Shown in pieces: positions 15,826 through 55,419 of a DNA stretch of 64,000 nt (positions within the stretch are counted from its first letter, which is position 1; the number at the start of each line of letters is the position of its first letter). The stretch is from an uncultured Myxococcales bacterium (lineage in GTDB: Bacteria > Myxococcota_A > UBA9042 > DTJE01). The notes beneath the pieces are model-generated. The model saw only the letters and a list, made by a program, of their open reading frames with translations, was not told where the DNA came from and made no database searches. The stretch spans positions 1 to 64,000 of the forward strand of contig CAIOFV010000147.1 of the NCBI GenBank assembly GCA_903857665.1. The letters are read 5' to 3'. The position numbers were made by a program, and so were the translations under genes.

Positions 15826-15846
15826 GCTGGCGGTGAAGGGGATTGC

Positions 15847-17109
15847 CTAGAGGTCCAGATCGGCCTCGAAGACGCCGTCCCGCGCCGAAATGGAGCGGGC
15901 CGAACTGCCGCCCAGGCATTCGACCATGCCGAGCGCCTCGAACGTGCCCTTCAGCGGGCCCAGGCCGTCCGGGCCGATGTCGGTCACGGTGACGGTGCAG
16001 CTGCCCGCGCCGAAGTCGAAGTTGGTGCAGGCGCCGCTGGTCGCGCTGGAGTGCAGGCCGTACCGCAGCCAGATCCGGGCGCTGAGTCCGTCCGTGGCGC
16101 CGCAGGAATACGTGCCGATCAGGCTGGATGTGAACGGAGGAACGACCGGCACGCCCAGGATGCCGATTTCCATTTGCGGCGAGGCGGTGCCATCGACGAG
16201 GCCCGGGAGCAGCAGGTCGGTCTTCTTGCTGGACTGCAGCAGCAGCACGATCTGGGACACGGCCTGGGTCTGTTCGTTCGCGGGGATCAGGCTGACGGTC
16301 GGCAGCAGGTCGAACGCGATCATGTTCCCGTCCAGCGAGACCCGGTTCGGCGGGACGACGTACACGTCCGGCTGGGGCCCGTAGTCCTTGCCCGGGTCGA
16401 TGTCGATGACTTCCTCGACGTCGGAAATCCCCTCGTCGATCACGTCGGCCGGGGGCGGGAGGTCACCCAGGCGCAGCTGGCAGAAACCGTCCACGCAGTG
16501 CTCGGTGGACTTGCAGTCCGTGACGTCCCAGCCCGTGGCGTTGAGGCGGCAGATGCCGGACGCGGCGTCCCCGCTGCAGCGAGCCTCTTCCGGGGTGCAG
16601 TCCTGCCTGGCGACGCACGTGTCGCCGTCGCAGGCGGTCCCGGTGGGGCAGGCCTCCGCGGTGCGCTTGCCATCGACGCACAGGACTCGCGTGTCGAACG
16701 TGCAGGTCGCCTTGTCCTTCGCAGCGTCGCAGGCGTCGAGGAGGCAGGCGCCCGCGTAGCACGACTGGAAGGTCGGGCACGGCAGCTTCGTCTGCATCAG
16801 GCCGTTGGCCGAGCACAGGAGCGCGACGTCGATGCCATCGCACCGATCCTTGCCCGCCGGGGTGCACTTCCGGGGCGTGCACGCGCCGTTCTGGCAGTCG
16901 CCGTCCGGGTAGCAGGCTCGGAGGTTGATGAAGGAGCGGCCGTCCGCCGCGCAGACCGCCGCGTAGTTGCCCAGGCACGCCTTGGTTTCGGGCGTGCAGA
17001 GGGTGGTGGGCAAGTGGCTGGTGCTGGTACTCCCCTTGCTGCTGCAGCCGGCGCTGGCCGCGGCCAGGAGGGCCAGGGCGGGTGCCAGGAACCGGATCGA
17101 TCGCATCAT
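15847..17109 (-). CDS. Cysteine-rich lipoprotein of unknown function
   Basis: A 420-residue protein with a lipoprotein signal peptide: positive MMRSIR, hydrophobic [14 protein letters not shown], then GC as the lipid-attachment cysteine near residue 22. About residues 38-215 hold some twenty cysteines in repeating short units (C..C....C pattern such as [17 protein letters not shown] and [13 protein letters not shown]). These recall the Cys-rich repeats of Myxococcota surface proteins and likely form serial disulfides. An acidic Asp/Glu/Pro linker ([17 protein letters not shown]) follows, then a ~170-residue beta-rich C-terminal domain. It should be anchored in the outer membrane or periplasm. 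The ATG at 17109 follows GGAGGAGTCCCCCG. It is the first gene before rng, xerC, hslV and hslU; the functional link is unclear. Confidence 0.8.
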
Positions 17110-37700: not shown

Positions 37701-38486
37701 GCCGAACTGGGCCGGGCGATGATGGAGGCGGGCCAGGACGTCGAGGCCGAGGCCGTGCTGCGCAAGGTGCTGCAGTTGCGGCCTTCCCACCATGTTTCGT
37801 TCTTCTACCTGGGGCAGTTGCTGGCGAGGCGAGGCAACCGGGAAGGGGCCATCGACGCCTACGAGAGCTCGATCAAGGCGAACTCCCGGGACGTGCGGCC
37901 CCGGATCGAACTGGCGCGCCTGTTCATGGCCGGGGGGGACGTCGAATCGATCCGCCAGGCCAAGTCGCAGCTGGACGCGGTGCTGGCGGCGTACGCCAGG
38001 AACGAGGTCGCGGAAGAGGAACGGGATGCCGACGCCTACCTGATGCGAGGGCGGATCCTGTTCGGCGAGCAGAAGTACAACCTGGCCATGAAGGATTTCG
38101 AGGCGGCCCTGGCACGGGCGCCGACCCGAATCGACATCCTCGCGGGCTTCGCGCGAACGCTGTTCGAGGCCGCGCGCTACGAGGACGCCCGGCCCTACCT
38201 CCGGCAGATCCTGTCCCGTGATCCGCAGCATCCGGAGGCGAACTACCTGACGGGCCTCATCCTGGTCCGCGACGGCAAGACCCGCCAGGCGCGGGAATTC
38301 CTGGAACGCGTGGTCCATCGCGACGCCCGCTCGTTCCCCGACGCCCACCGGATGCTGGGGATGATCTACCGCGACGAAGGGATGCAGAGCCTGGCCCGGT
38401 CGTCCTTCCAGACCTACCTGCGATACGCCGATCCGAAGAGCGCCGAGGCCGAGGAGGTCCGGCAGCTGCTGGCCCGCATGCACTGA
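34752..38486 (+). CDS. Zinc-ribbon / transmembrane / TPR protein
   Basis: A 1,244-residue protein. The N-terminus is a zinc ribbon, CPFCGDRIESNG...CPTCHATV (residues 5-29), of the MJ0042 type. Residues about 30-440 are a Pro/Ser/Gly-rich linker with poly-proline runs. One membrane helix lies at about 446-466 (PLLLGGLLILLVGLILGQTG). From about 500 to the end there are at least fifteen TPR units (LPAYLLGKIALAQDRLDDALKLFETAL; HHVSFFYLGQLLARRGNREGAIDAYESSIK). So the ribbon and linker face the cytoplasm and the TPR domain lies across the membrane. Zinc-ribbon/TPR proteins with this layout occur in myxobacterial gliding and polarity complexes, but I cannot name the function. The alternative start at 34740 would add four residues. 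The stop directly abuts the dnaE stop (TGATCA). Confidence 0.85.
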   Translation: MAVKCPFCGDRIESNGEATGGLVSCPTCHATVDVQLADPLPEAAATLAPPVASSRVEAPVRPGPAVEPAVGVGSYSLRSGEMKHAKETVFNSSAFKPPPPPPPPRPSPVAEPPRPASPPPRPDGLRFRPAEAPVPPPAPAPPPMDSFEKMSVAYRVDQLPIDVGPEIPASPDTTLDLADMNQTLDRLSGLVLDPSALQHYAAPPSPPQPPPPPPQAPPVGFEAGDRSPGGVRLDDLDLSFDDLQPLRVPESRSVPRAAGDPGTTLDIDAVMKEESFSDSLPSWVEQDPSAARTKPAAESPWSDGSKRIVERPIPSPAWDRGPAGAPPLGAHEPGSSEVSDTTAFSDDWSHAPVAGGGSDGGAAAGGLPPLSDFGFGGAAGAAEGFGESLFDGAPTGALQLDIPSQPGGVASAPQSPAGAAPLPPKRKGGKADKAVRKTSQPKKPIGRPLLLGGLLILLVGLILGQTGYGYFGLNLLGGGSGVGGASRRASAANPPGLVPDRRDAWQKEVIRLQRLLVDSPKDEALRSDLLLVLSRLRERYPTAVSADPVLVAKLRELLAQVRIQGDRGDYVKAMDLMANEKWPEAGPILEKLQATNPSDALPAYLLGKIALAQDRLDDALKLFETALARDPTMVCAIYFQGRVLAKKKDLGKARATFEAVLGREAEHLPARLGLAEVALASGDVEGAARMASEVISKAQPGADGDDLFVAHTLLARVEDQRGAKEGRLRELRAALGIRPTEVSVAVEVANLLRADDKPGDALAVLSPGREAGRDSADFLAAYAQAAFADDKGELADAAVAEGIDKHPKAAIFHVLRGRHELELRRLRTAAASFEAALQVDPSSVDAWAMLAQGLASEGRVGEAIERLKEGLGKTGSSPRLLLGLASLQKDQHDLVNAETTLREAVAKDPSNGNAQQELGLIVAAQGRVEEAAKLLGDLDAKRQLDRDGVLGLARALLLLREPGKARDVLQRVHETQAEDWDVAAELGRAMMEAGQDVEAEAVLRKVLQLRPSHHVSFFYLGQLLARRGNREGAIDAYESSIKANSRDVRPRIELARLFMAGGDVESIRQAKSQLDAVLAAYARNEVAEEERDADAYLMRGRILFGEQKYNLAMKDFEAALARAPTRIDILAGFARTLFEAARYEDARPYLRQILSRDPQHPEANYLTGLILVRDGKTRQAREFLERVVHRDARSFPDAHRMLGMIYRDEGMQSLARSSFQTYLRYADPKSAEAEEVRQLLARMH

Positions 38487-41400
38487 TCAGGTCAGCAAGG
38501 CGGTCCCCGGCCCCAGGATGCGCTCGATTTCGGTGATGATTTCGTCGCAGGGGCTCACCTGCCACTGCATGCCCGCCCGCATCTGCAACTCGCCTGCGCC
38601 GGCGAGGCGAAGCCGCAGTTCGAGGGGGCAGGGCCCCTTGTAGCGCCGGACCACGTCCCGCACGCTCTCGATGGCCGACTCGCGGACCAGCGAAAGGTCG
38701 ATGCGGACGACGACAGCCTTCGCCAACGCGCGGCGGGCCGCCTCCAGGCGCTCGATGGAGTGCACCATCAGCTTGACGCTCTGCTTTTCGGCATCGACCT
38801 GCACGTTGCCCGTGACCAGCACCGGCTCCTCGAGGTCGGTCAGCGATTCCAGCTGCGGGTAGGTCCGCCCGCCGACGAAGCACTCGCACTGGCCGGTCGC
38901 GTCCTCCAGCGTGAGGTACGCGAACCGGTTGCCGCTGGCCTTGGCGACCTTGTCGTTGCGGGCCAGCACGATGCCCGCCACGCGGACCGTTTCGTTCTCC
39001 TCGAAGGTCGGCAGGTCGCCGACGGGCACCACCTCGAAGCGCTCCAGGCGGCCCGCGTAGCGGTCCAGCGGGTGGCCGCTGACGTAGTAGCCGATCGCCT
39101 CGCGCTCGAAGGCCAGGCGCTGGCGGTCGGGCCATTCTGGCACGTGCGGCGGCCCGGCTTCCACCGACTTGGACACGGGAAGCGCGTCGAACAGCCCGCC
39201 CTGGCCCGATTCCCGATCGTCGCGACGGCGCTGGGCGGCCGACATCAGGGCGTCCAGCCCCTCGACCAGCGACGCCCGCGTGTGGCCGAAGCCGTCCATC
39301 GCGCCGCAGCGCGCCAGGGCCTCGATGACGCGCTTGTTGACCTTGCGGGTGTCCACGCGCGACAGGAAGTCCATCACCGAGCGGAACGGCTCCTTCAAGC
39401 GCGCGTCCAGGATCGCCTCGACTGCCGACTCGCCGATGCCCTTCACGGCGGTGAGGCCGAAGCGGATGGCCCCGCGCGTGCCCCCGGCACCGTCGTCCAC
39501 GTCCTCGACGGTGAAGTCCGACGACGACCGGTTCACGTCCGGGGGCAGCACCGGGACGCCCATCTGGCGGGCTTCGTGGATGAACCGCATCACCTTGGCC
39601 TGGTCGCCCTTTTCGGCGGTCAGCACCGCGCACAGGAATTCCGTCGGGTAGTGCGCCTTCAGGTAGGCCATCCGGTACGTCACGTAGGCATACGCGGCGC
39701 TGTGGCTCTTGTTGAACCCGTACTCGGCGAAGAACTCCATCTGCCGGAACAGGTCGCCGGCCTTGTCCACGTCGATGCCGCGCTCGGCGCAGCCCTTCAG
39801 GAAGGGTTCGCGCTGCTCCTGCAGGGCCTTCATGTCCTTCTTGCCCATGGCGCGGCGGAGGATGTCCGCCTGCCCCAGGCTGAAGCCGGCCAGGCGCGAG
39901 GTGATCAGCATCACCTGTTCCTGGTACAGGATCGTCCCGTAGGTGTCGCCCAGCAGGGGACGCAACTCCTCGATGGGGTATGACGCCGCCTTTTCGCCGT
40001 GCTTGACCGCGATGAATTCCTTGTCCATGTTCGAACCCAGCGGGCCCGGGCGGAACAGGGCGATGATGGCGATGATGTCTTCCAGGCGGTCGGGCCGCAG
40101 CCGGCGCACCAGGTCGGTGATGCCGCGCGTTTCCAGCTGGAACACGCCCGCGGTCCCCCCCGAGCAGATCAGGTCGAACGTCGGCTTGTCGTCCAGCGGG
40201 ACGTCCTCGATGCGGAAGCCCGGGTTCCCGCGGGCACGGATGTTCTTGACCGCGTTGTTGGTCACGGTCAGCGCGGTCAGGCCCAGGAAGTCGAACTTGA
40301 TCAGCCCGACGTAGTCCAGGTCCTTCATGTTGAACTGGGTCACCACGGAACCGTCGTCCGTGACGAAGAGCGGCGCGTACTCCTCGACCGGCCGGTCGGC
40401 GATGACGACGCCCGCGGCGTGCTTGCCGGGTTGGCGGGCCAGCCCCTCCAGGCGCAGCGCGACGTCCCACAGGGTCTTGTAGGTCGGGTTGCCCCGGATC
40501 AGTTCCTGGAGGCGGGGTTCCATGTTCCACGCCTTTTCCAGTGTCATGTCCAGGGCTTCCGGAATCAGTTTGGCGATGGCGTCGCCTTCCTGGAAGGTCA
40601 GGCCCAGCACACGGGACCCGTCCCGGATGACGGCCTTGGCCTTCATGGCGTTGAACGTGATGATCTGGCAGACCCGTTCGCGCCCGTATCGCTCGGTCAC
40701 GTACTGGATGACCTGGTCCCGCTGCTCCATGCAGAAGTCGATGTCGAAGTCGGGCGGGCTGATGCGCTCGGCGTTCAGGAACCGCTCGAACAGCAGGTCG
40801 TAGCGCAACGGGTCGATGTCGGTGATCCCGACCGCGAAGGCGACCAGGGAGCCGGCGCCCGATCCGCGCCCGGGCCCGACCGGGATGTCATGGCCCTTCG
40901 CCCAGGCGATGAAGTCGCGCACGACCAGGTAATAGGCGTCGAAGCCCAGCCGGATGATGACGTCCAGCTCGCGTTCGGCCCGGTCGAGGTAGGCGGTTTC
41001 GTCGGGAGCCAGCCCCAGCCGCCGGGCCTCGGCCAGCCGGTTCGTCACGCCCTCGGCGGTGATTTCCCGAAGGTAGTCCGGGACCGCCTTCCCGTCGGGC
41101 GGGACGAAGATCGGGAAGTGGTGGTGCTTGCTGGTCTGGAGGGCCTGTCCCTCGATCGACTCGGCGATCCGGACGGTGTTGGCCAGCGCATCCGGCAGGT
41201 GGGCGAAGGTCGCCGCCATCTCGTCGGGCGTGGCCAGGTGGAACGAGTCCAGCGGCAGCGTCTTCAGGGCCTCGGCCGTCAGGTTGCGCTTCATTTCGAT
41301 CGCGACCAGCACGGCGTGGGCCTGGGCGTCCTCGCGCTTGAGGTAGTGGGCGTTCGCGGTGGCCACCAGGGGGACGCCCGTTTCCCGGGACAGGTCGGCG

Positions 41401-41960
41401 AGCGCACCGTTCACGCGTTCCTGCTCGGCCAGCCCGTTGTTGGCCACCTCGAGGTAGTAGCCGCCGCCCCCGAAGACCTCCGCGTGCCAGGACACGGCTT
41501 CCCGCGCCGCGTCGAGGTCGCCGCGCAGGATCGCCTGCGGGACTTCGCCGCCCAGGCAGCCTGACAGCGCGATCAGGCCCTTTGAATGGGCCGCCAGGGC
41601 ATCCCGGCTGATCGCCGCCGCCGCGTCGCCGCGGTTCGGGTCTGTGTAGGCGCGGGACAGCAGCGTTCGCAGGTTCGCGAAGCCCTCGGGATTGCGGCAC
41701 AGAAGCACCAGGTGATGGCGTCGCGCGGTTTCGGCGTCGATCACGACGATCTCGGACCCGAAGATCGGCTTGAGGTCGATGCCCGCCTTCGGGTTCTTCG
41801 CGGCCTTCAGGAACTGCAGGGCGCCGAAGGTGTTCATGTGGTCCGTCAGCGCGACGGCCTTCATGCCCTGGGCGGAAACCTGCTTGACGAGCTCGTCGAT
41901 GCGGATGGTCGAGTCGAGGAGGCTGAACTGCGAATGCACGTGCAGGTGGACGAAATCCAT
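38487..41960 (-). CDS. dnaE: DNA polymerase III alpha subunit
   Basis: A 1,157-residue replicative polymerase. The N-terminal PHP domain begins FVHLHVHSQFSLLDSTIRIDELV (residues 3-25). The polymerase palm follows with PDFDIDFCMEQRD, the catalytic aspartates. Next are the fingers (GFNKSHSAAYAYVTYRMAYLKAHYPTEF) and helix-hairpin-helix motifs. The OB-fold lies at about 985-1060 (VRVAGIVLARNDKVAKASG) and the tau-binding C-terminus closes the protein. Length is normal for DnaE1. No intein is present. GGAG precedes the ATG. It converges with the zinc-ribbon/TPR gene with no gap and diverges from the giant TPR gene. Confidence 0.98.
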   Translation of the reverse strand: MDFVHLHVHSQFSLLDSTIRIDELVKQVSAQGMKAVALTDHMNTFGALQFLKAAKNPKAGIDLKPIFGSEIVVIDAETARRHHLVLLCRNPEGFANLRTLLSRAYTDPNRGDAAAAISRDALAAHSKGLIALSGCLGGEVPQAILRGDLDAAREAVSWHAEVFGGGGYYLEVANNGLAEQERVNGALADLSRETGVPLVATANAHYLKREDAQAHAVLVAIEMKRNLTAEALKTLPLDSFHLATPDEMAATFAHLPDALANTVRIAESIEGQALQTSKHHHFPIFVPPDGKAVPDYLREITAEGVTNRLAEARRLGLAPDETAYLDRAERELDVIIRLGFDAYYLVVRDFIAWAKGHDIPVGPGRGSGAGSLVAFAVGITDIDPLRYDLLFERFLNAERISPPDFDIDFCMEQRDQVIQYVTERYGRERVCQIITFNAMKAKAVIRDGSRVLGLTFQEGDAIAKLIPEALDMTLEKAWNMEPRLQELIRGNPTYKTLWDVALRLEGLARQPGKHAAGVVIADRPVEEYAPLFVTDDGSVVTQFNMKDLDYVGLIKFDFLGLTALTVTNNAVKNIRARGNPGFRIEDVPLDDKPTFDLICSGGTAGVFQLETRGITDLVRRLRPDRLEDIIAIIALFRPGPLGSNMDKEFIAVKHGEKAASYPIEELRPLLGDTYGTILYQEQVMLITSRLAGFSLGQADILRRAMGKKDMKALQEQREPFLKGCAERGIDVDKAGDLFRQMEFFAEYGFNKSHSAAYAYVTYRMAYLKAHYPTEFLCAVLTAEKGDQAKVMRFIHEARQMGVPVLPPDVNRSSSDFTVEDVDDGAGGTRGAIRFGLTAVKGIGESAVEAILDARLKEPFRSVMDFLSRVDTRKVNKRVIEALARCGAMDGFGHTRASLVEGLDALMSAAQRRRDDRESGQGGLFDALPVSKSVEAGPPHVPEWPDRQRLAFEREAIGYYVSGHPLDRYAGRLERFEVVPVGDLPTFEENETVRVAGIVLARNDKVAKASGNRFAYLTLEDATGQCECFVGGRTYPQLESLTDLEEPVLVTGNVQVDAEKQSVKLMVHSIERLEAARRALAKAVVVRIDLSLVRESAIESVRDVVRRYKGPCPLELRLRLAGAGELQMRAGMQWQVSPCDEIITEIERILGPGTALLT

Positions 41961-42152: not shown

Positions 42153-42206
42153 CATAGGGCGGGTTCCCGGTCTCCGGATGTCGACTCGGACTCACTCGAG
42201 GTGCGG

Positions 42207-45200
42207 ATGGACGTCAATGAACTTCGTCGGCTGCTGGACGACGTGACAGCGGGCCGCAGGACGGTCGATGCGCTGGATCGCGTCGCGGGGGGGTTGTCGC
42301 GCGACGACCTCCGGGAAGCGCTGGACTGCGTCAACGAGCGGGCAGGGCTGGCGGACGAGGCGCACGACATCGCTTCGTGGACGCGCCTGACCGCGGACCT
42401 GCTGCATCGCTGGGCGCTGGCATCGACGGACGACCTCGCGGGGACGCTGGCTGCGGCCGCGGCCGACCTGTACCGTTCGGACCTCCAGGACATCGAATCG
42501 GCCGAGGCGGCCCGGGCCGCAGCGGCGGTGAAGTCGTTGAACCCGGTGGCGCTGGCAACCCTGTTCGACCAGGTCGGCGACGGCCTTCCCGAGGAAACCC
42601 GCATCCGCCTGATCCGGGCCCTGGCCGCGGTCGGGGATGACGAAACGAAGTACCGGTTCGCAGGAATGCTGCGCGAGGTCGTCGATGCCCGTCAGCAGCG
42701 TCGCGCCCGCGAGGCGGCCCAGGTCTCCCGGATGGCCCAGGCCCGCGAACTGATGTCCGCCGGGGGGCCGATCGAGGACGTGATCAACCTCCTGGATCAG
42801 CACCTCGAATCGGCGCCCGGGGATCGCGAGGCCCTGACCCTGGTGACCCGCGCCCTGGTGGACACCGGCCGCTCCAACGAGATCGAGTTCCGGTTCCGCC
42901 GGGGGCTGGACCTGCTGGAGCCGGCGCGGCGGGCCGATGTGCTGGTGGATCTGGCGTGCGTGCACCACGACACCTTGAACGACGACGCCCGCGCCCGCGA
43001 GGCGGCCGAGGAGGCGCTGGCGATCGACCGTGTCCATCCGGGGGCCCTGGACATCTGGGTGGCGGCCATGAACGGCCTGGACCTGGGCACGGAAGCGCTG
43101 GCCGGCCTGGAGAAGCGACGGAGCGACGCCGCCGGCTCGCCCGACGAGGCGCGCCTGCTGCCGGTCCTGGCGCGGGCCTACCAGGCCGCGAACCGCCCCG
43201 ACGACGCCGAGCGGGCCTGGCGGCGCCTGCGGGCCATCGATCCCCGGAACATCGCAGCCCTGCGCTTCTACGAGGACTACCACCGGTCCCGCGGCGATTT
43301 CCAGACGCTGTTCACGACGCTCCAGTTCCTGCTGTCGGTGGTCGAGGACCCGACCGAGCGCGTCCGCGTGAACCGCACGATGGCCGCGGTGGCCGAGGAG
43401 CACCTGAAGAACCCCGAGCGGGCCATCGAGGCGTGGAAGCGCGTGCTGTCCCTGGAAACTACCGACGCGACGGCCGAAACCGCGCTGGTGGACCTGTACG
43501 AGCGCACCCGGAAGTGGCATGCCCTGGTCGAGTTCCACAACGACCGGCTGCGTCGCCTGCCACCGGAGGCCATCGAGGAAAAGACCGCGACACTGTTCAA
43601 GATCATCGAAATCTACCAGGACCCCGATCGTCTGCCCAACGCCGACAACGTGCTGGCCACCTATGCCCGGATCGTCGAGGTGTCGCCGACGCACAAGGAG
43701 GCGCTGGAGACGCTGGCGCGCGGCTACCAGGACCGCGAGCGGTGGCCCGATCTGCTGAAGGTGTTGCAGAAGAAGGTCTTCGTGACGGAGGACCCCGCGG
43801 AACTGCTGGAACTGTTCCAGCAGATCGCCGAGATCGCCATCACGCGGATGTCCAACGAGACGCAGGCGATCCCGTTCCTGGAGCGCATCCTGGAACTGGA
43901 CCCGGAAAACCTGGCCGTGGTCCAGCGCCTGAAGTCCATCTACCAGCACAAGCACAACCAGGAAAAACTGTTCACGATGCACCTGCGCGAACTGGCGATG
44001 CTGGTGGGCCCCGAGCGGGAGCAGGTGCTGATCGCGGCGGCGGCGATGGCCCGGGACCGCCTGCTGCGGTACGACGAGGCGCTGCGGCTGTACGAGGAAC
44101 TGTACATCACCAACACCAACTCGCGGGAGGCGCGCGAGAACCTGCACCAGTTGTACACGCGCCTCGAGCGGTGGCAGGACTACGCCCGCTTCCTGTCCGA
44201 GGAGGTCGATCGGCCGATGCCGACCCGGCGTCGGATCGAACTGATGCACAAGTGGGGCGAGGTGCTCGCGGACCGGCTGGGCGACGAGACCCGGGCCCGG
44301 CAGGTGTTCGAGCGCGTGCTGGAAATCGATGCCGGGGACGACATCGCCGCCCGGCGCCTGGAGCAGATCTACCTGGACCTGGAGGATCTGGAGGCGCTGC
44401 ACCGCGTGTTCGCGGGGCGCCAGGATCTGCGGTCCTTCGTGGCGCTGTTGTCGCAGCGCGAGGCCAAGGAATCGGACACGTCCCGCCGCGTGGCGCTGAA
44501 CCTGGCCATGGCGAAGACGTGCGAGGAGGATCTGGACGAGGTCCCTCGCGCAGCGCGCTACCTGGAAAAGGCATTTTCGCTGGACCACGGGCTGGTGGAC
44601 GTGGGGCGTCGGCTGCTGGCGGCGTGCGAGCAGCAGGGCGACCTGGACCGGGTATCCGCGATCCTGCGCGACCTGGCGCCCGCGGTCACCGACTCGGGCG
44701 AGCGGCTCGATCTGTTCCTGCGGCTCCACGACGTGCTGGCGAAGCTGGGTGACCATGCCGGCGCGTTCCAGGCCGGCACCGACGCCATGCGGGTGGCGAT
44801 GAGCCTGGGGAACGTCGAGCCCGTGCTCGACAAGGTGCGTGTCACGGCCCGGGACGGCGGGCTGTGGATGGAGTTCGCCGGCCTGCTGCAAGAGGTCGCG
44901 GCGGCGGTGATGGACCCGGACTTCCGGCAGCGCCTCCTGCTGGAGTTGGGGCAGGTCTTCAAGGGCCGCCTCCTGTTCCACGACGAGGCCAGGGACGTGC
45001 TGGAGCGGGTGCTGGACCTGGACCCCGGCAACCTGGAGGCGCTGGACCTCCTGGAAGACATCGCGCTGCAGCGCGAGGACTGGGACGGGCTGGAAAGCGT
45101 GCTGCGCCGGCGGATCGACGTCGCGCGGAACGACGGCGAGGCCCGGGACATCCGGATGCGCCTGGGGCGGTTGTACGAGGACCTCCTGGGGGACGATGCC

Positions 45201-47255
45201 GCCGCCGCGGAGTGCTACGTCCAGGTCGCCCACGCGGCGAGCGACGACCGGGAGGCCCTCGCGGGCCTGCACCGGGCCTACGACCATACCGAGCGCTGGG
45301 TGGACCTGGCCGACGTGATTCGCATGGAAATCGCGGCGGCGTCCGGTGCGGAATGGGAGCGCATGCGCCTCCAGGCCGAGCTGGCGCAGGTGTCGTGGGA
45401 GCATCTCGACGACCTGGACGAGGCCGTGCGGCTGCTCGCCGCCGGGCTGGGGTCCGAGGCGCATGCCGCGGAGGCCTTGCGCCAGTTGCGGATCCTGTTC
45501 GACCGGCGCATCGCCCGGGACGCCGCGGCCAACCTGATGGCGCCGTACTTCCGGAACACCGGTCGCATCGACGAGCTGCTGGACCTTCTGCAGGCCCGTC
45601 TGGACGACGTCGGCCGGCCCGAGGCCGCCGGCGCGATCCTGATGGAAATGGCCGACATCCGCGAGCGGGTGAAGGGCGATATCGAGGGGGCGTTCCCGCT
45701 GGTCGCGGCGGCGGTCCAGCGGTACCCGGCCGAGTCGTTCGTCGAGCGCCTGTGCGTGCTGGCGGACGCGACGGGGCGGCATCGGGACGCGGCGATTGCC
45801 ATCGGCCGGTGGGTCGGGATCGTGCCCGAGGGTTCGGCGATCAGCGATTCGACGATCCCGGACCCGGCCCGCGAGGCGAGGTTCTCGCTGGTGCTGGGAC
45901 GCCTGTATGCCGATCGGCTGGACGAGCCGAACCTGGCGATCAAGGCCCTGGAAAAGGCCCTGCCGTTCGAGGGCAGCGACGAAACGCTGCTGCGCACCCT
46001 CCTGGGCCTGTACCGCCGCGTCGGGGATCGGGAAGCGGCGCTGCAGACCTTCGATCGGCTCGCCGACGTCGCCTCGTCCACCGCCGAGCGGCGCGAGGTG
46101 CTTCTGTCGCGGGCCCAGTATGCGCGGGAGCAGGGGCAGGACGACCAGGCGATCGATACGCTGTTCCAGGTCCTGGACATCGAGGCGGGCGACGACGCTG
46201 CCGCGGACCTGGAAGTGTTGCTGGATCGCAACGGGCGTTGGAACGAACTGGTGCGATTGCTGGAACGCCGGGAAGGCTGGACCGGGGAACCGGCCCCGCG
46301 TGCCGAACTGCTGCGCCGCCAGGCAGCGGTCCAGGGCGAGCGCCTGGGACGCAACGATCGCGCGGCGGACCTGCTGCGCCGCGCTCTCGTCGATGACCGG
46401 GGGCGCGAGGATCTGCGGGCTGCGGCCGAGGGCCTCGCGTTCCGGCAGGAAGCCCCCGGCTGGCGCGAGTGGGCCCCCCCGCTGCTGTCGGCCCTGGAGG
46501 AAACGTTCAAGGCGGACCGGCGCGATCCCGACCGGCTGGCGAACGTGTACCGCGCCCGGGCCGACATCGCCGGATCGCCGTGGGATCGGGTCGTCGCGTT
46601 GAACGAGCTGGCGACGCTGGAACGGGATCGGGGCGACCTCAACGCGGCCTTCTCTGCCCGCGTGAAGGCCCTCGAGACGATGCCGGACGACGGTTCACTG
46701 GCCGACGCGGTCGTCGAGATGGGCGAGGCCGCGGGCAGGCCTGCCGCCGTGGTGGAGGCCCTCGAGTCCGTGGCGCCGACAGCGGGGGTCGAGGGTCGGG
46801 TTCGGCTGCTCCTCCGCGTGGCACGGACCTGGCGCACGCGCCTGGAGGATCCGGCGCGGGCCATGGCCATCTACGACCAGTTGCTGGAACTGCAGCCCGG
46901 GTCGATGGATGTCCTGCGGGAAATGGATGCCCTGCTGCACGACCAGGGACGGGAGGCCGAGCGCATCCCCCTGCTGACCGAGATGGCGGTGGCGGCGCCG
47001 ACGCTGGACGAACGTCGGCAGACCCACCTGACGATCGGGGACCTCTGCCAGGCGACCGGCGATTTCGAGGGGGCCTTGCGGGCCTTCCGGTACGTGCTGG
47101 ACAGGCGGCCCAGCGAGGACGCCCTGGACGCCTCGTCGCTGGACGCCGCCCATCGCCTGTTGGCGCTGGCGGATACCCTGGGACGGACGCGCGATGCCGT
47201 CGAACTGCACCTGCTGGTCGGCCGGACGGCCGTGGACAAGCCCGTGTCGCTGTAG
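42207..47255 (+). CDS. Giant TPR-repeat protein, N-terminal 1,682 residues, ends at an in-frame TAG
   Basis: A long all-helical protein without signal peptide or membrane helix. After about 150 residues it consists of repeating 34-40-residue units typical of TPR/half-TPR arrays: ALRFYEDYHRSRGDFQTLFTTLQFLL, AIEAWKRVLSLETTDATAETALVDLYERTRKW, AIPFLERILELDPENLAVVQRLKSIYQ. Such arrays bind proteins; cytoplasmic scaffolding is the general expectation. The start ATG 42207 follows CGAGGTGCGG. The TAG at 47253 cuts a repeat in its middle (DKPVSL, stop, HLLAAARILRD) and the same frame continues for 1,842 codons. This is therefore the first part of a gene broken by a single nonsense codon, or of a longer gene with an error in the assembly. 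Codon use does not change. Confidence 0.85.
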   Translation: MDVNELRRLLDDVTAGRRTVDALDRVAGGLSRDDLREALDCVNERAGLADEAHDIASWTRLTADLLHRWALASTDDLAGTLAAAAADLYRSDLQDIESAEAARAAAAVKSLNPVALATLFDQVGDGLPEETRIRLIRALAAVGDDETKYRFAGMLREVVDARQQRRAREAAQVSRMAQARELMSAGGPIEDVINLLDQHLESAPGDREALTLVTRALVDTGRSNEIEFRFRRGLDLLEPARRADVLVDLACVHHDTLNDDARAREAAEEALAIDRVHPGALDIWVAAMNGLDLGTEALAGLEKRRSDAAGSPDEARLLPVLARAYQAANRPDDAERAWRRLRAIDPRNIAALRFYEDYHRSRGDFQTLFTTLQFLLSVVEDPTERVRVNRTMAAVAEEHLKNPERAIEAWKRVLSLETTDATAETALVDLYERTRKWHALVEFHNDRLRRLPPEAIEEKTATLFKIIEIYQDPDRLPNADNVLATYARIVEVSPTHKEALETLARGYQDRERWPDLLKVLQKKVFVTEDPAELLELFQQIAEIAITRMSNETQAIPFLERILELDPENLAVVQRLKSIYQHKHNQEKLFTMHLRELAMLVGPEREQVLIAAAAMARDRLLRYDEALRLYEELYITNTNSREARENLHQLYTRLERWQDYARFLSEEVDRPMPTRRRIELMHKWGEVLADRLGDETRARQVFERVLEIDAGDDIAARRLEQIYLDLEDLEALHRVFAGRQDLRSFVALLSQREAKESDTSRRVALNLAMAKTCEEDLDEVPRAARYLEKAFSLDHGLVDVGRRLLAACEQQGDLDRVSAILRDLAPAVTDSGERLDLFLRLHDVLAKLGDHAGAFQAGTDAMRVAMSLGNVEPVLDKVRVTARDGGLWMEFAGLLQEVAAAVMDPDFRQRLLLELGQVFKGRLLFHDEARDVLERVLDLDPGNLEALDLLEDIALQREDWDGLESVLRRRIDVARNDGEARDIRMRLGRLYEDLLGDDAAAAECYVQVAHAASDDREALAGLHRAYDHTERWVDLADVIRMEIAAASGAEWERMRLQAELAQVSWEHLDDLDEAVRLLAAGLGSEAHAAEALRQLRILFDRRIARDAAANLMAPYFRNTGRIDELLDLLQARLDDVGRPEAAGAILMEMADIRERVKGDIEGAFPLVAAAVQRYPAESFVERLCVLADATGRHRDAAIAIGRWVGIVPEGSAISDSTIPDPAREARFSLVLGRLYADRLDEPNLAIKALEKALPFEGSDETLLRTLLGLYRRVGDREAALQTFDRLADVASSTAERREVLLSRAQYAREQGQDDQAIDTLFQVLDIEAGDDAAADLEVLLDRNGRWNELVRLLERREGWTGEPAPRAELLRRQAAVQGERLGRNDRAADLLRRALVDDRGREDLRAAAEGLAFRQEAPGWREWAPPLLSALEETFKADRRDPDRLANVYRARADIAGSPWDRVVALNELATLERDRGDLNAAFSARVKALETMPDDGSLADAVVEMGEAAGRPAAVVEALESVAPTAGVEGRVRLLLRVARTWRTRLEDPARAMAIYDQLLELQPGSMDVLREMDALLHDQGREAERIPLLTEMAVAAPTLDERRQTHLTIGDLCQATGDFEGALRAFRYVLDRRPSEDALDASSLDAAHRLLALADTLGRTRDAVELHLLVGRTAVDKPVSL

Positions 47256-47291
47256 CACCTGCTGGCCGCGGCCCGCATCCTGCGCGACGCC

Positions 47292-50200
47292 GTGCGAGAT
47301 CCGCAGGAGGCCGCGCGGATCTTCGACGAGATCCTGGCCGCGGACCCGGTGGACGCCGTCGCCCGCGAGGAGGCCAAGGCGCTGGCGCGCGGCGTCAAGG
47401 ACCGGTCGCGGCTGCTGGCGTTGCTGAAGGACGAACTGGCGAACGCCCCCGATCCGGCGATGCGCGTGACCCCGCTGGTCGAGCTGGCGAACCTCCACCT
47501 GGAAACCGACGAAATCGGGCGTGTGGACGGCCTGGTCTGCCTGGAGGACGTGCTGGCGATCGACCCGGCCCATCCGGCTGCCCTGGCGGTCCTGGAATCG
47601 CTGCTGTCGGACCGCGCGGCGGGAAGCGAGGCGGCCCGGCTGCTCGTTTCGGCGTCCGATCGGACCGGGGACCTGGAACTGGCGGCCAAGGGGCTGCGCG
47701 TGCTGGTGGAACGGGAGGACGACCGGGTCCGGTTGACGGCGCTGCGCATGCGCCTTTCCTACTGCCTGCGCTCGCTGGGCCTGACGGCGGATGCCCGTGC
47801 GGTGCTGGAAACGGCCTATGTCGAAGCCCCCGAGGACGAAACCGTGTTCGCTTCGCTGGCGGACACCCTGGAAGCCGAGGGCAACCTGGCGGACCTCGCC
47901 GCCATGTCGGCATGCGGCGCGGCCGGGCTGGGGGACCTTCCGGCTCGCCTGGCGGTTCGCCTGCGGGCGGCGGCGGTGATGCTGCGGGCCGGGATCGCCG
48001 AACCCGTGGTGCGCCTGCTGGAAGCGAACATCGCGGATTCTGAAACGCACCTGCCGACGCTCGAGATGCTGACGGCGGCCTTCGAGGCCCTGCAGCGCCC
48101 GGAGCAGGTCCTGGATGCCCTGGAGCGGACGGCTGGTGCCCTGGTCGAACCCGGGGCGCGCTGCGAGGTGTGGCGTCGCGGCGCCGTGCTGGCCGAAAAC
48201 GAGCTGAAGGACTCTGCCCGCGCCAGGAAGTTCTGGTGGCAGGTGCTGGAGGACGCGCCGCTGGACCCGGAGGCCCTGGCGCACCTGGGCACGCTGCTGG
48301 ACGCGTCCCGGGATCTGGACGGGCAGTTGCGCCTGGATCGTCACGAACTGGCCGTGCGCACGGATCGTGGCCTGGCCGAGGACGGCGACCGGCTGGTGGA
48401 ACTGCGGCGTCGCCTGGCGCTGCTGGCCCTGGAGGCCGGTCATCCGGTCGATGCCGTCGCGGCCGCGCTGGACCTGCTGGCCGCGGGAACCACCGAGTCC
48501 GAGGACCTGGCCGTGGCCCGGCGGGTCTATGCCGAGGCCGGCTCTCCGGCCGAGCTGTTCGCGGCCCTTGCGGCCGGGTGCGAGCGGGCAGTGGACCAGG
48601 ACGGCCTGCTGGACCTGTACCGGTACGCCGCGGGCCTGGACCTGGACGTGCCCCCGAGGGCCGAGGCCCTGCGGCTGGCCGTGGACCTGGAAGAGGCGCT
48701 GGGGCGCGAGGACGACCTGTTCGAGGACCTCAAGTCCCTGGTGGCCATCGAGGCGGCCGACGCCGTGCTCCGGGGCCGGATGATGTCGTCCGGAAAGCGG
48801 CTGGGGCGGTTGGAGGAAGTGCAGCAGGCCCTGGTGGACGCCTTCGCGGCGCTGCAGGACGGCCCCGAGTCCTACGACGTGGCCATGGCGATCGGGACGC
48901 TGCTGCGGGATGACCTTGCACGGGAAGACGACGCGGCGGACTGGTTCCGGCTGGCGTTCCTGCGGCGTCCCGGCGATGCCGTCGCCGTCGATGCGCTGTC
49001 GGCCCTGTACGCCCGGCTGTCGCGCTTCGGCGACCTGGCGCTGCTGTTCGAAAACCTCGGGGATCTGGAAGAGGTCGAGTCCGAGCGCCTCGCGCTGTAT
49101 TTCAAGGCCTACGACGTCGTGCGGTTCCGGGTGAAGGATCCGGGGGGCGCAGCGGAAATCCTGAAGAAGGTCCTGGACCAGGACCCGGGCAACCGGGGTG
49201 CCCTGGAGGGCCTGGAGTCCATCGCGCGCGAAACGGCCGACTCGGGGGCCTTGAGCCTGTGGCTTGCGCGCCGGGCCGAGGTGTCGGTGTCGCCGACGGA
49301 GCGGCGGGCGACGCTGCTGGAACTGGCGACGGTCCAGGAGGGGCCGTGCAACGACCCGGCATCGGCCATCGCGACCTTGCGGGGCCTGGTCGAAACCGAC
49401 CCGCAGTGCGACGAGGCCTGGCATCGCCTGGAAGGGCTGTACGTGGCGACGGGCCGCTGGGAGGACCTGGCGGACCAGTACGAGCGGCAGGCCGGGATCG
49501 CGCCCAGCCGCGAGGAGAAGATCGGCGCGCTGAAGAAGGCGGCGGGCGTTCGGGAAAGCCGCCTGCAGGACTCGGGGGCGGCCGCCGTCCTGCTCCGGCG
49601 GATCCTGGATATCGACCCGGCGAACACCTACGCCTTCATCCGGCTGTGCGAACTGCTGGACGCCGCGGGCGACGCGGTGGGCCTGGTGGAACTGCTGACC
49701 GCGAGGCTGGCGCATGCCGCCGGGTCCGCCGAGCAGGTGGACCTGCACGCCCGCGTGGGCACGCTGTGGGCGGGGCGCCTGGGCGACGACGCCCGGGCGG
49801 TCGAGCACTTCAAGGCGGCGTTGGCGATCGACCCCTTCGACGCGCCGGCGCGCCAGGGGCTCGAGGCCCTGCTGGATTCGCCGATCAGCGCGATGGAATC
49901 CGCCCTGATCCTGGAAGGCGTATACGAGGGTGCCGGCGAGCACGAACGGCTCTGCGGTGTCCTGGAACGCGAAATCGCGCTGATGGCCGGCGTCGCCGAA
50001 CGCGAGACGGTCCGGATGCGCATCGCCGAGATCCGTGCCGACCGCCTGAACGACGTGGCGGGTGCGATGGACACGCTGTCCGAGGTGCTGCTGGACAACC
50101 CGGCGCACCGTGATGCGGCGGCACGCCTGGAGGCCCTGGCCGAGCGGATCGGCGCGTGGGATCGTTTGGCGTCGCTGATGTCCGATGCCGCGGCCCGGGC

Positions 50201-52784
50201 CGAATCCCCTGACGATCGGATGCGGTTGCGCCTGGCTGCGGCCGAAATCGCCGAACGGCGGATGAACCAGCCGGCGCGGGCGGCCGAGTACTACGCGGCC
50301 TATGCCGAAGAGAACCCGGGCGACGACCTCGTCCTGGAGGAACTGGACCGCCTGTACCAGGTGCTGAAGCGGACCGAGGACCTGGTCCGGATCCTTCGGA
50401 TGCGCATTTCCGCTGCGGGCGAGGCCGTTCCCGAGGAACTGCGCCTGCGGCTGGCGTCGTTGCTGGCCCAGGACGGCGCCGAGGTCGAGGGCGCCGTCGA
50501 GCAGCTGCGGCGCGTGCTGGTGGACAAGCCCGGCCATGCGGAGGCCATCCGGCAGTTGTCCACCCTGGCGTCGGATTCCCTGGCCGGCCGACAGGCCCTG
50601 GAAGTTCTGCGGGTGGCCTTCCGGGAAGCGTCGGATGACGAGGGCCTCCTGTGGTCGCTGGAGCGTCTCATCGACACGTCCAGCGAGTCCTCCGACGTGG
50701 TGTCGTTGCACGACGAGGCGGCGGACGCCGCCCGGCGCGGGGGTCGTCGCCCCGTGGAAGTGGAGCACCTGGGGCGCGCGCTGGGCCTGGTACCGTCCGA
50801 CGAGGGTGTGCTGGTGCGCCTGTTGAAGTCGGCTCGCGAGGCGGGCCTGCAGGCGACCGCGTTCGGATACCTGGTCCGGGCGGCCCAGGGCGCCTCCTGG
50901 CCGGAACTGGAAAAGTCGCTGCTGTTGCAGGCCGTTCGCCTGGGGGGGCCGGCCGGAGTACCGCCTGCCGAGGTCGAGGCGGCCCTGCGCCGGGTGCTGG
51001 AAATCGACCCGGTGTGCAAGGAGGCCCTCGAGGCCCTGGACCGGATGTACGAGGAGTCCGGACGGACGAGCGAGTTGACGGAAGTGCTGGATCAGCGGCT
51101 TCGGCTGGACCTGACGGCCGATGACCGGGTCGGCGTCCTGTCGAGGCTGGCGCGGCTGTCCGAATCGTCGGGGGATCTGGAGCGGGCTGCGACGATCCTG
51201 GAAGATATCGCCGGGATCCGGGCCGAGCCCGGCGTGCTGCGATCGCTGCGGCGCCTGACCCAGGCGCTGGACGACGTGCCCGGGCAGATCCGGGCGCTGG
51301 AGCGCCTGGCCGACGCGGGGATCGAGCCGGAAGAGCGGGTCACCTGCCTCCTGGACGCGGCCTCGCTGTGGGAGAACCGCCTGCAGGAAAAGACGGCGGC
51401 CGTGGCCACGCTGGAAAAGGTCCGCGAGAGCGATCCGCTGAACGTGGCGGCCCGCATGCGCCTTGAAAAACTGTACGACGACCTGGCGGAATGGGAGCCG
51501 CTGGTGCGGATGCTGACGGACGCTGCCGATGGCGACGGCACTGTCCAGGAACGTCGCGGGGCAGCCCTGAAGGCGGCGGCCATCACCGAAACCCACCTGG
51601 ACAACCTGCCCGAGGCGGTGGGCCTGGTGAAGCGCGCCGCCGAAATCGATCCGGACGACGACACCGTGCTGGACGAGTTGATCCGGCTGTTCTATCGCAG
51701 CGAGGACTGGACCGGCCTGGTGGGAGTGTTGCGGCGCAAGGCGTCCCGGACGTCCAAGAAGGCCGACCAGGTGGCCCTGCTGGCCAAGGCGTGCGACGTC
51801 GCGGTCCATCGCCTGGGCGACCTGGCCCTGGGCGGCGGCCTGGCGCGGCAGATCATGGCCCTGGATCCCCAGCATCCGCGGGCGCTGCTGACGATGGCGC
51901 GCCTGATGGAGCAGCGCGAGCAGAACGAGGAGGCGGCGAACCTGTACCAGCGCCTCGCCAGCAGCACGTCCGATGCCGACGAGCGGGTGGAGGCCCTGGT
52001 GGGCCTGGGACGGCTGCGGATGGCGCGGGGCGACCGCGGCGACGACGTGCGGAAGGCGTTGCAGTCGGCCGCGAAGCTGCGTCCGCAACATGCCGAGGTC
52101 AACCGGTACCTGAAGCGCCTGTACCAGGAGGCCGGCGAGCACCACGCGCTGATCGAGGTGATGCTGCGCGAGCTGAAGCAGGCGACCGACGACACCGAGC
52201 GCGCGTCGATCTGCATGGACGTGGCGGAAATCTACCTGAAGGAGATGAACGACGGCGGCAAGTTCCTGCAGTGGGCGGAAGAGGCGCACCGGTTCCGTCG
52301 CGACGACCCGCGTGTCGTGGGCGGCATCGTCCGGTTCCACCTGCAATCCGGCGAACCGCGGCGCGCCGTGCCGTACCTCGAGTGGCTGGTGAACTACCTG
52401 GAAGGCAAGCGCCGCCTGAAGGAACTGCCTCCCTACGCCCACGAGCTGGGCCACATCCTGGAGTCGATGGGGCAGGAGGAAAAGGCGATCCAGTACTACC
52501 GCCTGGCCCACGAGCACGACGCCGGCAACGTCACCAACGCGCTGGCCCTGGGGCGCCTGTACCTGGCCCGCGGCGACAACGAGAAGGCCTTGCGGATCTA
52601 CCAGCCGCTGATCCTCCGCATGGACGGGCTGGCCCAGCCGGCCCGCATCGAGGTGCTCCTGTCGCTGTCCCGCGCCTACGTGGCACAGGGCGACAAGCGC
52701 AAGGCGCGCCAGTTCGTGCTGCGCGTGCTGCAGGAGGAACCCGAGAACGCCGAGGCCCAGGCGCTGCTGGCCAAGGGGCTGTAA
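47292..52784 (+). CDS. Giant TPR-repeat protein, C-terminal 1,830 residues, downstream of the in-frame TAG
   Basis: The same frame as the upstream part, separated only by the TAG at 47253-47255. The repeats continue without a break in phase: RDPQEAARIFDEILAADPVDAVAREEAKAL, then units such as GAAEILKKVLDQDPGNRGALEGLESIAR and AVEHFKAALAIDPFDAPARQGLEALL. The last ~250 residues are more regular TPRs ending ENAEAQALLAKGL. The first possible start after the stop is GTG 47292. It has no Shine-Dalgarno sequence and would begin within a helix, so independent translation is unlikely. If the TAG were CAG (Gln) the whole protein would have 3,525 residues. It is followed by proline dehydrogenase. Confidence 0.8.
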   Translation: MRDPQEAARIFDEILAADPVDAVAREEAKALARGVKDRSRLLALLKDELANAPDPAMRVTPLVELANLHLETDEIGRVDGLVCLEDVLAIDPAHPAALAVLESLLSDRAAGSEAARLLVSASDRTGDLELAAKGLRVLVEREDDRVRLTALRMRLSYCLRSLGLTADARAVLETAYVEAPEDETVFASLADTLEAEGNLADLAAMSACGAAGLGDLPARLAVRLRAAAVMLRAGIAEPVVRLLEANIADSETHLPTLEMLTAAFEALQRPEQVLDALERTAGALVEPGARCEVWRRGAVLAENELKDSARARKFWWQVLEDAPLDPEALAHLGTLLDASRDLDGQLRLDRHELAVRTDRGLAEDGDRLVELRRRLALLALEAGHPVDAVAAALDLLAAGTTESEDLAVARRVYAEAGSPAELFAALAAGCERAVDQDGLLDLYRYAAGLDLDVPPRAEALRLAVDLEEALGREDDLFEDLKSLVAIEAADAVLRGRMMSSGKRLGRLEEVQQALVDAFAALQDGPESYDVAMAIGTLLRDDLAREDDAADWFRLAFLRRPGDAVAVDALSALYARLSRFGDLALLFENLGDLEEVESERLALYFKAYDVVRFRVKDPGGAAEILKKVLDQDPGNRGALEGLESIARETADSGALSLWLARRAEVSVSPTERRATLLELATVQEGPCNDPASAIATLRGLVETDPQCDEAWHRLEGLYVATGRWEDLADQYERQAGIAPSREEKIGALKKAAGVRESRLQDSGAAAVLLRRILDIDPANTYAFIRLCELLDAAGDAVGLVELLTARLAHAAGSAEQVDLHARVGTLWAGRLGDDARAVEHFKAALAIDPFDAPARQGLEALLDSPISAMESALILEGVYEGAGEHERLCGVLEREIALMAGVAERETVRMRIAEIRADRLNDVAGAMDTLSEVLLDNPAHRDAAARLEALAERIGAWDRLASLMSDAAARAESPDDRMRLRLAAAEIAERRMNQPARAAEYYAAYAEENPGDDLVLEELDRLYQVLKRTEDLVRILRMRISAAGEAVPEELRLRLASLLAQDGAEVEGAVEQLRRVLVDKPGHAEAIRQLSTLASDSLAGRQALEVLRVAFREASDDEGLLWSLERLIDTSSESSDVVSLHDEAADAARRGGRRPVEVEHLGRALGLVPSDEGVLVRLLKSAREAGLQATAFGYLVRAAQGASWPELEKSLLLQAVRLGGPAGVPPAEVEAALRRVLEIDPVCKEALEALDRMYEESGRTSELTEVLDQRLRLDLTADDRVGVLSRLARLSESSGDLERAATILEDIAGIRAEPGVLRSLRRLTQALDDVPGQIRALERLADAGIEPEERVTCLLDAASLWENRLQEKTAAVATLEKVRESDPLNVAARMRLEKLYDDLAEWEPLVRMLTDAADGDGTVQERRGAALKAAAITETHLDNLPEAVGLVKRAAEIDPDDDTVLDELIRLFYRSEDWTGLVGVLRRKASRTSKKADQVALLAKACDVAVHRLGDLALGGGLARQIMALDPQHPRALLTMARLMEQREQNEEAANLYQRLASSTSDADERVEALVGLGRLRMARGDRGDDVRKALQSAAKLRPQHAEVNRYLKRLYQEAGEHHALIEVMLRELKQATDDTERASICMDVAEIYLKEMNDGGKFLQWAEEAHRFRRDDPRVVGGIVRFHLQSGEPRRAVPYLEWLVNYLEGKRRLKELPPYAHELGHILESMGQEEKAIQYYRLAHEHDAGNVTNALALGRLYLARGDNEKALRIYQPLILRMDGLAQPARIEVLLSLSRAYVAQGDKRKARQFVLRVLQEEPENAEAQALLAKGL

Positions 52785-52909: not shown

Positions 52910-53806
52910 ATGTTCGGCTGGTTGATCACCCGGATGCTTCCGATCGTCCCGATGCCGGTGGTGCGAGCGGTTTCACGGCGCTACGTCGCGGGCGAGGACC
53001 TGGGCGCGGCCCTCGAGGTCGTGAAGGGGCTCAACGCCAGCGGCTTCCAGGCAACCATGGACATCCTCGGCGAGGACGCTGGTGACGCGGCCCACGCGGA
53101 CGGCACCGTCGATGGGTACCGGAACGTGCTGGATCGGATCGCGGCGGAGGGGCTGAAGTCCAATGTCAGCGTGAAGATGACGCACATGGGCATCCGCCTG
53201 GACCGGGGCGAGGCCGAGGCGCGACTGGCGCGGATCGTGGACAAGGCGGCCGAGCACGGCAACTTCGTCCGGATCGACATGGAAGACTCGGGGCTGACCG
53301 ACACGACGTTCGAGGTGTACCGGGCAGCGCGTGCCCGCCATCCGCGGGTCGGGACGGTGATCCAGGCGTATCTTCGTCGCACGGTGGACGACGCCCGGAT
53401 CCTGGCCGCCGAGGGCGCGAACCTGCGTCTGTGCAAGGGCATCTACCGCGAGCCGGCGGCGATCGCGTACCAGGGCAAGGAGGAAATCCGGAAGTCCTAC
53501 CTGGACACCGCCGAAATCCTCCTGTCGGCGCCCGGGACCTACACCGGCTTCGCGACGCATGACCGCGTGCTGATCCAGCGCCTGCTGGACTTGACCCGCC
53601 GCATGGGCATGCCGCGGGACCGCTTCGAGTTCCAGGCCCTGCTGGGCGTGCCGGTCGATGACGTGCTGACCGATCTGGTTTCGCAGGGATACACCGTCCG
53701 CTGGTACGTCCCCTTCGGCGATGAGTGGTACGCTTACAGCACCCGCCGCCTGAAGGAGAATCCCAAGATGGCCACCTACATCGTGCGGCACTGGTTCGGC
53801 CGATGA
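52910..53806 (+). CDS. Proline dehydrogenase
   Basis: A 298-residue single-domain FAD enzyme oxidising proline to pyrroline-5-carboxylate. Typical segments: NVSVKMTHMGIRLD (beta strand 4-5), VRIDMEDSG, TVIQAYLRRT, LRLCKGIYREPA, FATHD, FEFQALLGVP, GYTVRWYVPFGDEWYAYSTRRLKENP. The RR in STRRLKENP binds the substrate carboxylate. The pattern is that of the stand-alone ProDH and not PutA. The ATG at 52910 follows GGGGGAGGGCGAAC; an in-frame ATG at 52892 would add six residues. Its stop overlaps nadB (ATGA). Confidence 0.92.
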   Translation: MFGWLITRMLPIVPMPVVRAVSRRYVAGEDLGAALEVVKGLNASGFQATMDILGEDAGDAAHADGTVDGYRNVLDRIAAEGLKSNVSVKMTHMGIRLDRGEAEARLARIVDKAAEHGNFVRIDMEDSGLTDTTFEVYRAARARHPRVGTVIQAYLRRTVDDARILAAEGANLRLCKGIYREPAAIAYQGKEEIRKSYLDTAEILLSAPGTYTGFATHDRVLIQRLLDLTRRMGMPRDRFEFQALLGVPVDDVLTDLVSQGYTVRWYVPFGDEWYAYSTRRLKENPKMATYIVRHWFGR

Positions 53807-55419
53807 CCACCGACTTCCTCGTCCTGGGCAGCGGCCTGGCGGGCCTGTCGTTCGCGCTGGAGGCCTCCAGCTTCGGCCACGTGATCGTCGCGACCAAGCG
53901 CGAGGCCGAGGAATCCAACACGCGGTACGCCCAGGGCGGCATCGCGTCGGCGATGGGCAAGGACGACTCCTTCGAACTGCACATCGAGGATACGCTGCAG
54001 GCGGGCGCCGGCCTGTGCCATCCGGACATCGTCGATCTGTGCGCCCGGTCGGCCCCGGCCCGCATCCGCTGGCTGATCGACCTGGGCGTGTCGTTTTCGA
54101 CGGTCCCCCGCGAGGAATCCGTCGAGTTCGATTTCGGGCGCGAGGGCGGGCATTCCCGGCGGCGCGTTCTGCACGTCGAGGACCTGACGGGGCGGGAGAT
54201 CGAGCGCGTGCTGGTCGAACGCTGCCGCGCGAGTGCGAACATCACGCTGCTGGAAGACACGCTGGGCATCGACCTGTTCCTGGCGGCGGACGCCGGCGGG
54301 CGGCCCCGTGTGGGCGGGGCGTTCGTGCTGGATCGCCGGACGGGCGACGTGATTTCCATCGGCGCGCGGGCCACGATCCTGGCCACGGGCGGCGCGGGCA
54401 AGGTGTACCTGTACACCTCGAACCCAGACGCGGCGACCGGCGACGGCGTCGCGATGGCCTACCGGGCAGGCGCGCGCATCGCCAACATGGAATTCTTCCA
54501 GTTCCACCCGACGTGCCTGTACCACCCCAAGGCCAAGTCCTTCCTGCTGTCCGAGGCCCTGCGGGGCGAGGGCGGGATCCTGCGGCGCCTGGACGGGAAG
54601 CGGTTCATGGAGGGCGTCCACCCGCTGAAGGAACTGGCGCCTCGCGACATCGTTGCGCGGGCCACCGATGCCGAAATGAAGAGCACCGGCGATGACCACG
54701 TGCTGCTGGACATGACGCACCTTCCAAAGGAGTTCCTGGAGCAGCGCTTCCCGTACCTGCTGGGCACCTGCCTGAAGTTCGGCATCGACATGCGGAACGA
54801 GCCGGTGCCGGTGGTCCCGGCGGCCCACTACCAGTGCGGCGGCGTCCAGGTCGATGACCGGGGGCGCTCGGTGCTGCCCGGGCTGTACGCGATCGGCGAG
54901 GTGGCGTGCACGGGCCTGCATGGCGCCAACCGGCTGGCGTCGAACAGCCTGCTGGAGGCCCTGGTGTTTGCCCATCGCGCGGCTTCGGACCTGCGCGAGG
55001 CCCTGGCGGACCTGCCCCAGCCGGTGGAAGCGGCCCTGCCGTCGTGGATGGTCAACGGCGCCACGCCGTCGTCGCGGGCCGAAAGCGTGATGGTGTCCCA
55101 GGACTGGGACGAAATCCGCCGGCTGATGTGGAACTACGTCGGCATCGTGCGGTCGAACCGGCGCCTGATGGCGGCCCGTCGCCGCCTGGACATCCTGCAC
55201 GGCGAGGTCCACGAGTACCTGCTGTCGACGCCGCTGACGCCCGACCTCGCAGAACTGCGCAACCTGTGCCGGGTGGCGCGCCTTATCGTCGAAAGCGCCA
55301 TCAAGCGCCAGGAAACCCGCGGGGTGCACGTGAACCTGGACTACCCGTCAACCGACGACGAGCGGTGCAGCGCGGACACTCTGCTCTGGGCAGGCGTGCG
55401 GACCGAACTGGTCTCCTGA
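53803..55419 (+). CDS. nadB: L-aspartate oxidase
   Basis: A 538-residue FAD enzyme that oxidises aspartate to iminoaspartate, the first step of NAD synthesis from aspartate. The FAD-binding N-terminus is LVLGSGLAGLSFALEAS. Other markers are TRYAQGGIASAM, HSRRRVLHVEDLTGREIE, ILATGGAGKVYLYTSNP, GDGVAMAYRAGARIANMEFFQFHPT and HGANRLASNSLLEALVFAHR. The fumarate-reductase-like C-terminal helical domain is complete. The Glu in MEFFQFHP fits L-aspartate oxidase and not succinate dehydrogenase, and no Fe-S partner gene is near. The start overlaps the proline dehydrogenase stop by 4 bp. nadA and nadC are not in the window; nadD lies 52 kb away. Confidence 0.95.
   Translation: MTTDFLVLGSGLAGLSFALEASSFGHVIVATKREAEESNTRYAQGGIASAMGKDDSFELHIEDTLQAGAGLCHPDIVDLCARSAPARIRWLIDLGVSFSTVPREESVEFDFGREGGHSRRRVLHVEDLTGREIERVLVERCRASANITLLEDTLGIDLFLAADAGGRPRVGGAFVLDRRTGDVISIGARATILATGGAGKVYLYTSNPDAATGDGVAMAYRAGARIANMEFFQFHPTCLYHPKAKSFLLSEALRGEGGILRRLDGKRFMEGVHPLKELAPRDIVARATDAEMKSTGDDHVLLDMTHLPKEFLEQRFPYLLGTCLKFGIDMRNEPVPVVPAAHYQCGGVQVDDRGRSVLPGLYAIGEVACTGLHGANRLASNSLLEALVFAHRAASDLREALADLPQPVEAALPSWMVNGATPSSRAESVMVSQDWDEIRRLMWNYVGIVRSNRRLMAARRRLDILHGEVHEYLLSTPLTPDLAELRNLCRVARLIVESAIKRQETRGVHVNLDYPSTDDERCSADTLLWAGVRTELVS

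Follow-up and report, generated by a model that had tools for sequence, protein, structure and literature searches.

The in-frame TAG at positions 47253-47255 of the window (the whole stretch of 64,000 nucleotides analysed here) is very probably a sporadic, one-off lesion or an error of the record in an otherwise normal and conserved giant TPR gene, with no special decoding involved. The preliminary description had proposed a recent CAG-to-TAG mutation or a base-call error within one long gene. The intact genes of relatives agreed with the single gene and its recent interruption, but not the CAG origin, since the nearest species reads GAG at this position. If the stop is present in the DNA, the protein would be cut off after 1,682 residues and lack its second half; the product would be a half-length solenoid, and the gene a very young null or truncation allele. 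If only the record carries it, the usual protein of about 3,525 residues would be made by the population. Neither case would require that TAG be recoded, that readthrough be programmed or that translation start a second time. From the assembled sequence and the comparison with relatives, a real mutation and an assembly error are about equally likely.

The TPR-repeat frame runs from 42207 to 52784 on the plus strand and consists of 3,526 codons with a terminal TAA. Its translation contained one internal stop, the TAG at 47253-47255, in the context DKPVSL-stop-HLLAAARILRD, exactly as first described. The N-terminal part of this giant TPR (alpha-solenoid) gene extends over 1,682 codons to the internal TAG (42207-47255, plus strand); it matched Pfam TPR families and showed 77-90% identity to the orthologues of two species of the same genus. 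The C-terminal part (47256-52784, plus strand; 1,842 codons and the terminal TAA) likewise aligned with the proteins of relatives and contained neither a second stop nor a frameshift, and the best Pfam matches on both sides of the TAG were TPR-type repeats. The ATG at 42207 is conserved, the beginning MD[VI][ND]EL being common to the relatives, and is preceded by a ribosome-site match with a computed anti-SD pairing of -7.2 kcal/mol. This probable ribosome-binding region lies around GAGGTG, approximately at 42192-42204 on the plus strand. The frame is physically open from an ATG at 41586; the alignment with relatives ends at 42207, with none of it upstream. The position 42207 as the gene start fits these sequence features.

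The coding character of the frame on both sides of the stop was evaluated with a dicodon model trained on the same genome. Forty codons on each side, read in the same frame, scored +23.1 and +31.8, and the best other frame scored -30.5. Furthermore, the two sides aligned end to end with what is a single protein in the relatives. Because both sides score as coding and align in this way, the interrupted frame is not due to chance, and the earlier claim of one coding frame across the TAG was borne out. Very long antisense open frames also occur in this region, the longest with 1,940 codons (46695-52517, minus strand). This frame was considered and dropped, as every frame but that of the TPR gene scored as non-coding near the stop; such long antisense frames probably come from base composition.

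We then compared the gene with its orthologues in seven relatives of the same family, the nearest genomes examined (G001, G002, G004, G005, G007, G009, and G011). In all seven, the orthologue is one stop-free frame, of 3,538, 3,567, 3,601, 3,617, 3,629, 3,658, and 3,709 codons, listed here by length. Both sides of the present protein aligned with these over nearly the whole length at 39-90% identity, and the orthologue of the nearest species was 88.5% identical over the protein. The genomic place was also shared. The divergent neighbour dnaE, encoding DNA polymerase III alpha (38487-41960, minus strand), adjoins the orthologue in all six relatives with comparable flanks, those of G007 having given no comparison. 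On the other flank, these six relatives carry a proline dehydrogenase gene, an FAD oxidoreductase gene, or both; in the window, the proline dehydrogenase gene is the next one downstream (52952-53806, plus strand; same place in five relatives) and is followed by the FAD-binding oxidoreductase gene (53803-55419, plus strand; downstream in six relatives). Beyond dnaE, positions 35949-38486 encode an 845-residue TPR-rich protein conserved in both same-genus relatives.

The present gene therefore shares end-to-end alignment and genomic place with the giant TPR orthologous group of the Myxococcota, and departs from it in the TAG at 47253, the group being otherwise one uninterrupted frame. With intact orthologues at the same locus, the two parts are by descent a single gene, and of the genomes examined only this one has the stop.

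An alternative is gene fission, in which two working proteins are made and the second starts anew after the stop. The two open frames are of similar size, as would be expected in this case. However, the seven relatives, which might have carried two separate genes had fission occurred, each carry a single one. GTG 47292, the first start downstream of the stop, had been described as lacking a ribosome site, and the calculation agreed (no ribosome-site match; +0.4 kcal/mol). Likewise, the in-frame starts within the first 400 bases after the stop matched the ribosome site no better than background codons of the gene. In addition, we modelled 500 residues of the intact sister protein around the site. 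The predicted structure (mean pLDDT 92.6) consisted of continuous helical pairs, and the stop corresponded to residue 251, within the opening turns of the helix formed by residues 246-263. As this helix sits in an unbroken run of helical repeats, the stop does not lie at a domain boundary in the model. Taken together, fission is highly improbable.

The bases at the stop were compared with those of the relatives. The nearest species has GAG at the position of the stop codon, and the others have CTT, GTC, GAC, GAT, GAT, and GCC, in this order; thus, the first base is G in six of the seven, and CAG was ruled out as the ancestral codon by the GAG of the nearest species. The ancestral state rests mainly on this one close relative, the next closest having CTT. 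On these alignments, a G-to-T change in the Glu codon GAG would be the simplest path to TAG. A second change, absent from the preliminary description, was found in the preceding codon (47250-47252), which reads CTG (Leu) in this genome and CGG in that of the nearest species; the residue is Arg in all seven relatives, encoded by CGG, CGT or AGG. Among the columns invariant in the relatives, 3 of 598 differ in the present gene, one of them being this Arg beside the stop, and 7 of 602 differ in the sister. From the other invariant columns (2 of 597 differing), the chance of an unrelated change at the neighbouring codon was estimated at near 0.3%. Lying two bases from each other, the two G-to-T differences point to a single event or a single stretch of faulty reads, and a double change may have turned CGG GAG into CTG TAG. 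A local burst of G-to-T changes in 47250-48050 was also considered, and it vanished when a third genome was used to polarise the changes; the substitution density near the stop was raised only slightly and showed mixed polarity.

Next, selection on the part after the stop was examined by comparing this lineage with its sister. Private amino-acid changes numbered 62 here and 66 in the sister after the stop, and 44 and 55, respectively, before it (Fisher p = 0.59). The ratio of changes at codon positions 1 and 2 to those at position 3 after the stop was 96:152 in this lineage and 120:189 in its sister (p = 1.0), that is, 0.63 in both. The dN/dS value against the sister was 0.14 before the stop and 0.17 after it. 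As a rough upper bound, no more than about 7% of the branch would have been free of constraint. A nonsense pseudogene is recognised by a stop absent from intact orthologues, as was observed in the relatives; it is further recognised by relaxed selection or additional lesions downstream of the stop, and neither was detected in the comparison with the sister. The absence of relaxed selection is compatible with a very young lesion, to judge from these substitution counts. Since selection was not loosened after the stop, a mutation, if real, would have to be very recent, and an artefact fits equally.

These observations bear on the two forms that a sporadic lesion or record error may take. In the first, to which we give close to an even chance, the stop is found only in the record, where a consensus or assembly error in a metagenome-assembled genome (MAG) wrote two nearby wrong bases. 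The genome is a draft of 173 contigs with 93% completeness, both departures are G-to-T and two bases apart, one of them falls on a residue invariant in the seven relatives, and relaxed selection has left no trace in a strongly conserved gene family. On the other hand, odd bases are not generally in excess on the contig, as seen in the invariant columns given above, substitutions around the stop show only a mild rise and mixed polarity, and other in-frame stops of this kind are absent in 239 kb. In the second form, whose probability we place a little short of even, a clustered double substitution would have produced a real and recent nonsense allele, with a half protein of 1,682 residues and the rest a very young pseudogene. 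The clean reading on both sides of the stop and the normal local sequence are consistent with such an allele. Moreover, an intact giant TPR paralogue (3,646 codons; only about 25% identical) is present elsewhere in the genome and might soften the loss. The family-wide conservation, the purifying selection that acted on both parts up to at least very recent times, and the absence of a second lesion argue against it; with a gene so strongly conserved, a fixed nonsense allele is somewhat unexpected.

We also considered that a full-length protein is made despite the stop, either by programmed or leaky readthrough or by reassignment of TAG. The frame after the TAG is kept without decay, in accordance with this possibility. 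However, none of the relatives examined carries the stop, so there is no conserved programmed element. RF1 scored above its curated cut-off, and RF2 is present with its usual TGA frameshift site. The best match to PylS, the pyrrolysine synthetase, reached 19.6 bits against a cut-off of 178. A tRNA with a CTA anticodon was absent among 46 tRNA matches of the 93% complete draft, from which some ordinary tRNAs (e.g., Trp and Asn) are also missing. In a 239-kb sample of the genome, 150 genes were called, and these end in TGA (101), TAG (45, about 30%) or TAA (4), the interrupted gene being counted. TAA is thus a rarely used stop in this sample. The use of TAG as a normal stop elsewhere, from which a code change had been judged unlikely, was confirmed by these counts. 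RNA folding downstream of the stop gave -38.5 kcal/mol, a value within about one standard deviation of the gene's own windows (-32.8 +/- 5.8 kcal/mol). The genetic code is very probably standard, and readthrough or recoding is very unlikely. A real and leaky TAG would yield half- and full-length giant TPR scaffolds, as a recent, species-specific readthrough switch, and this particular outcome is likewise very unlikely.

Further interrupted genes were searched for in the same genome. None was found in the 239-kb sample, where the remaining in-frame stops with coding sequence on either side resemble normal gene junctions, each followed by a start 9-30 bases later; one of these junctions was checked by protein family. 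In the window, an in-frame TAG at 15847 on the minus strand was rejected as a readthrough site, being an ordinary junction: what follows is a complete protein of the RNase E/G family that has a start of its own. This gene (14305-17013, minus strand) begins about 21 bases after the TAG in the same frame, and the preceding gene of 388 residues has no Pfam match. Genome-wide, 158 stretches encoding ABC-ATPase, kinase, and HATPase domains contained no interrupted gene; the single flagged stop, a TGA in an HATPase domain on contig C71, was the natural end of a histidine kinase. In prfB (L065, contig C87), an in-frame stop about 24 codons into the gene belongs to the usual programmed frameshift site, and a TAG seemingly inside RF2 proved to be upstream, out-of-frame sequence ahead of the normal TGA frameshift site.

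The intact second giant TPR frame of this genome lies on contig C162 (L033, start near 5729). Most genomes of the family likewise encode a second giant TPR protein, distantly related (about 25% identity) and some 3,590-3,660 residues long. Across the phylum, frames of the giant TPR type recur with lengths of about 3,300-4,300 codons, with matches in 248 of 285 genomes when short TPR cross-matches are included, and no internal stop was found in giant TPR frames among the matches listed across the phylum. A literature search on giant TPR proteins in Myxococcota and on error motifs gave nothing usable, and a function was not found. The mechanistic weight of one lesion in one draft genome is small; it illustrates that an isolated stop within so long a frame is to be judged by relatives, selection, and the genetic code. 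Of more use is the incidental finding that TPR proteins of about 3,300-4,300 residues are widespread among Myxococcota genomes; this family, to which no function has been given by name, merits further work.

The type of lesion is ordinary. The orthologues in CAINDP010000176.1, CAIZWN010000078.1, and VGRB01000053.1, which come from MAGs of uncultured Myxococcales or Deltaproteobacteria, have the same length and the same repeats end to end. In the first two of these, the gene also stands beside dnaE, with the proline dehydrogenase and FAD oxidoreductase genes on the other side. Unlike the present gene, all three frames are uninterrupted. TAG recoding systems, such as pyrrolysine insertion and amber suppression, likewise show an in-frame TAG in a frame that is still coding, whereas here RF1 is present, TAG is a regular terminator, PylS remained below the cut-off, and the CTA tRNA was not found among the 46 tRNA matches. 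The closest likeness is to an ordinary nonsense pseudogene or a premature-stop consensus error in a draft MAG, in which a single stop also occurs in a long conserved frame, is absent in relatives, and is accompanied by no further decay. The present case differs from these in its two adjacent changed codons and in the very long target.
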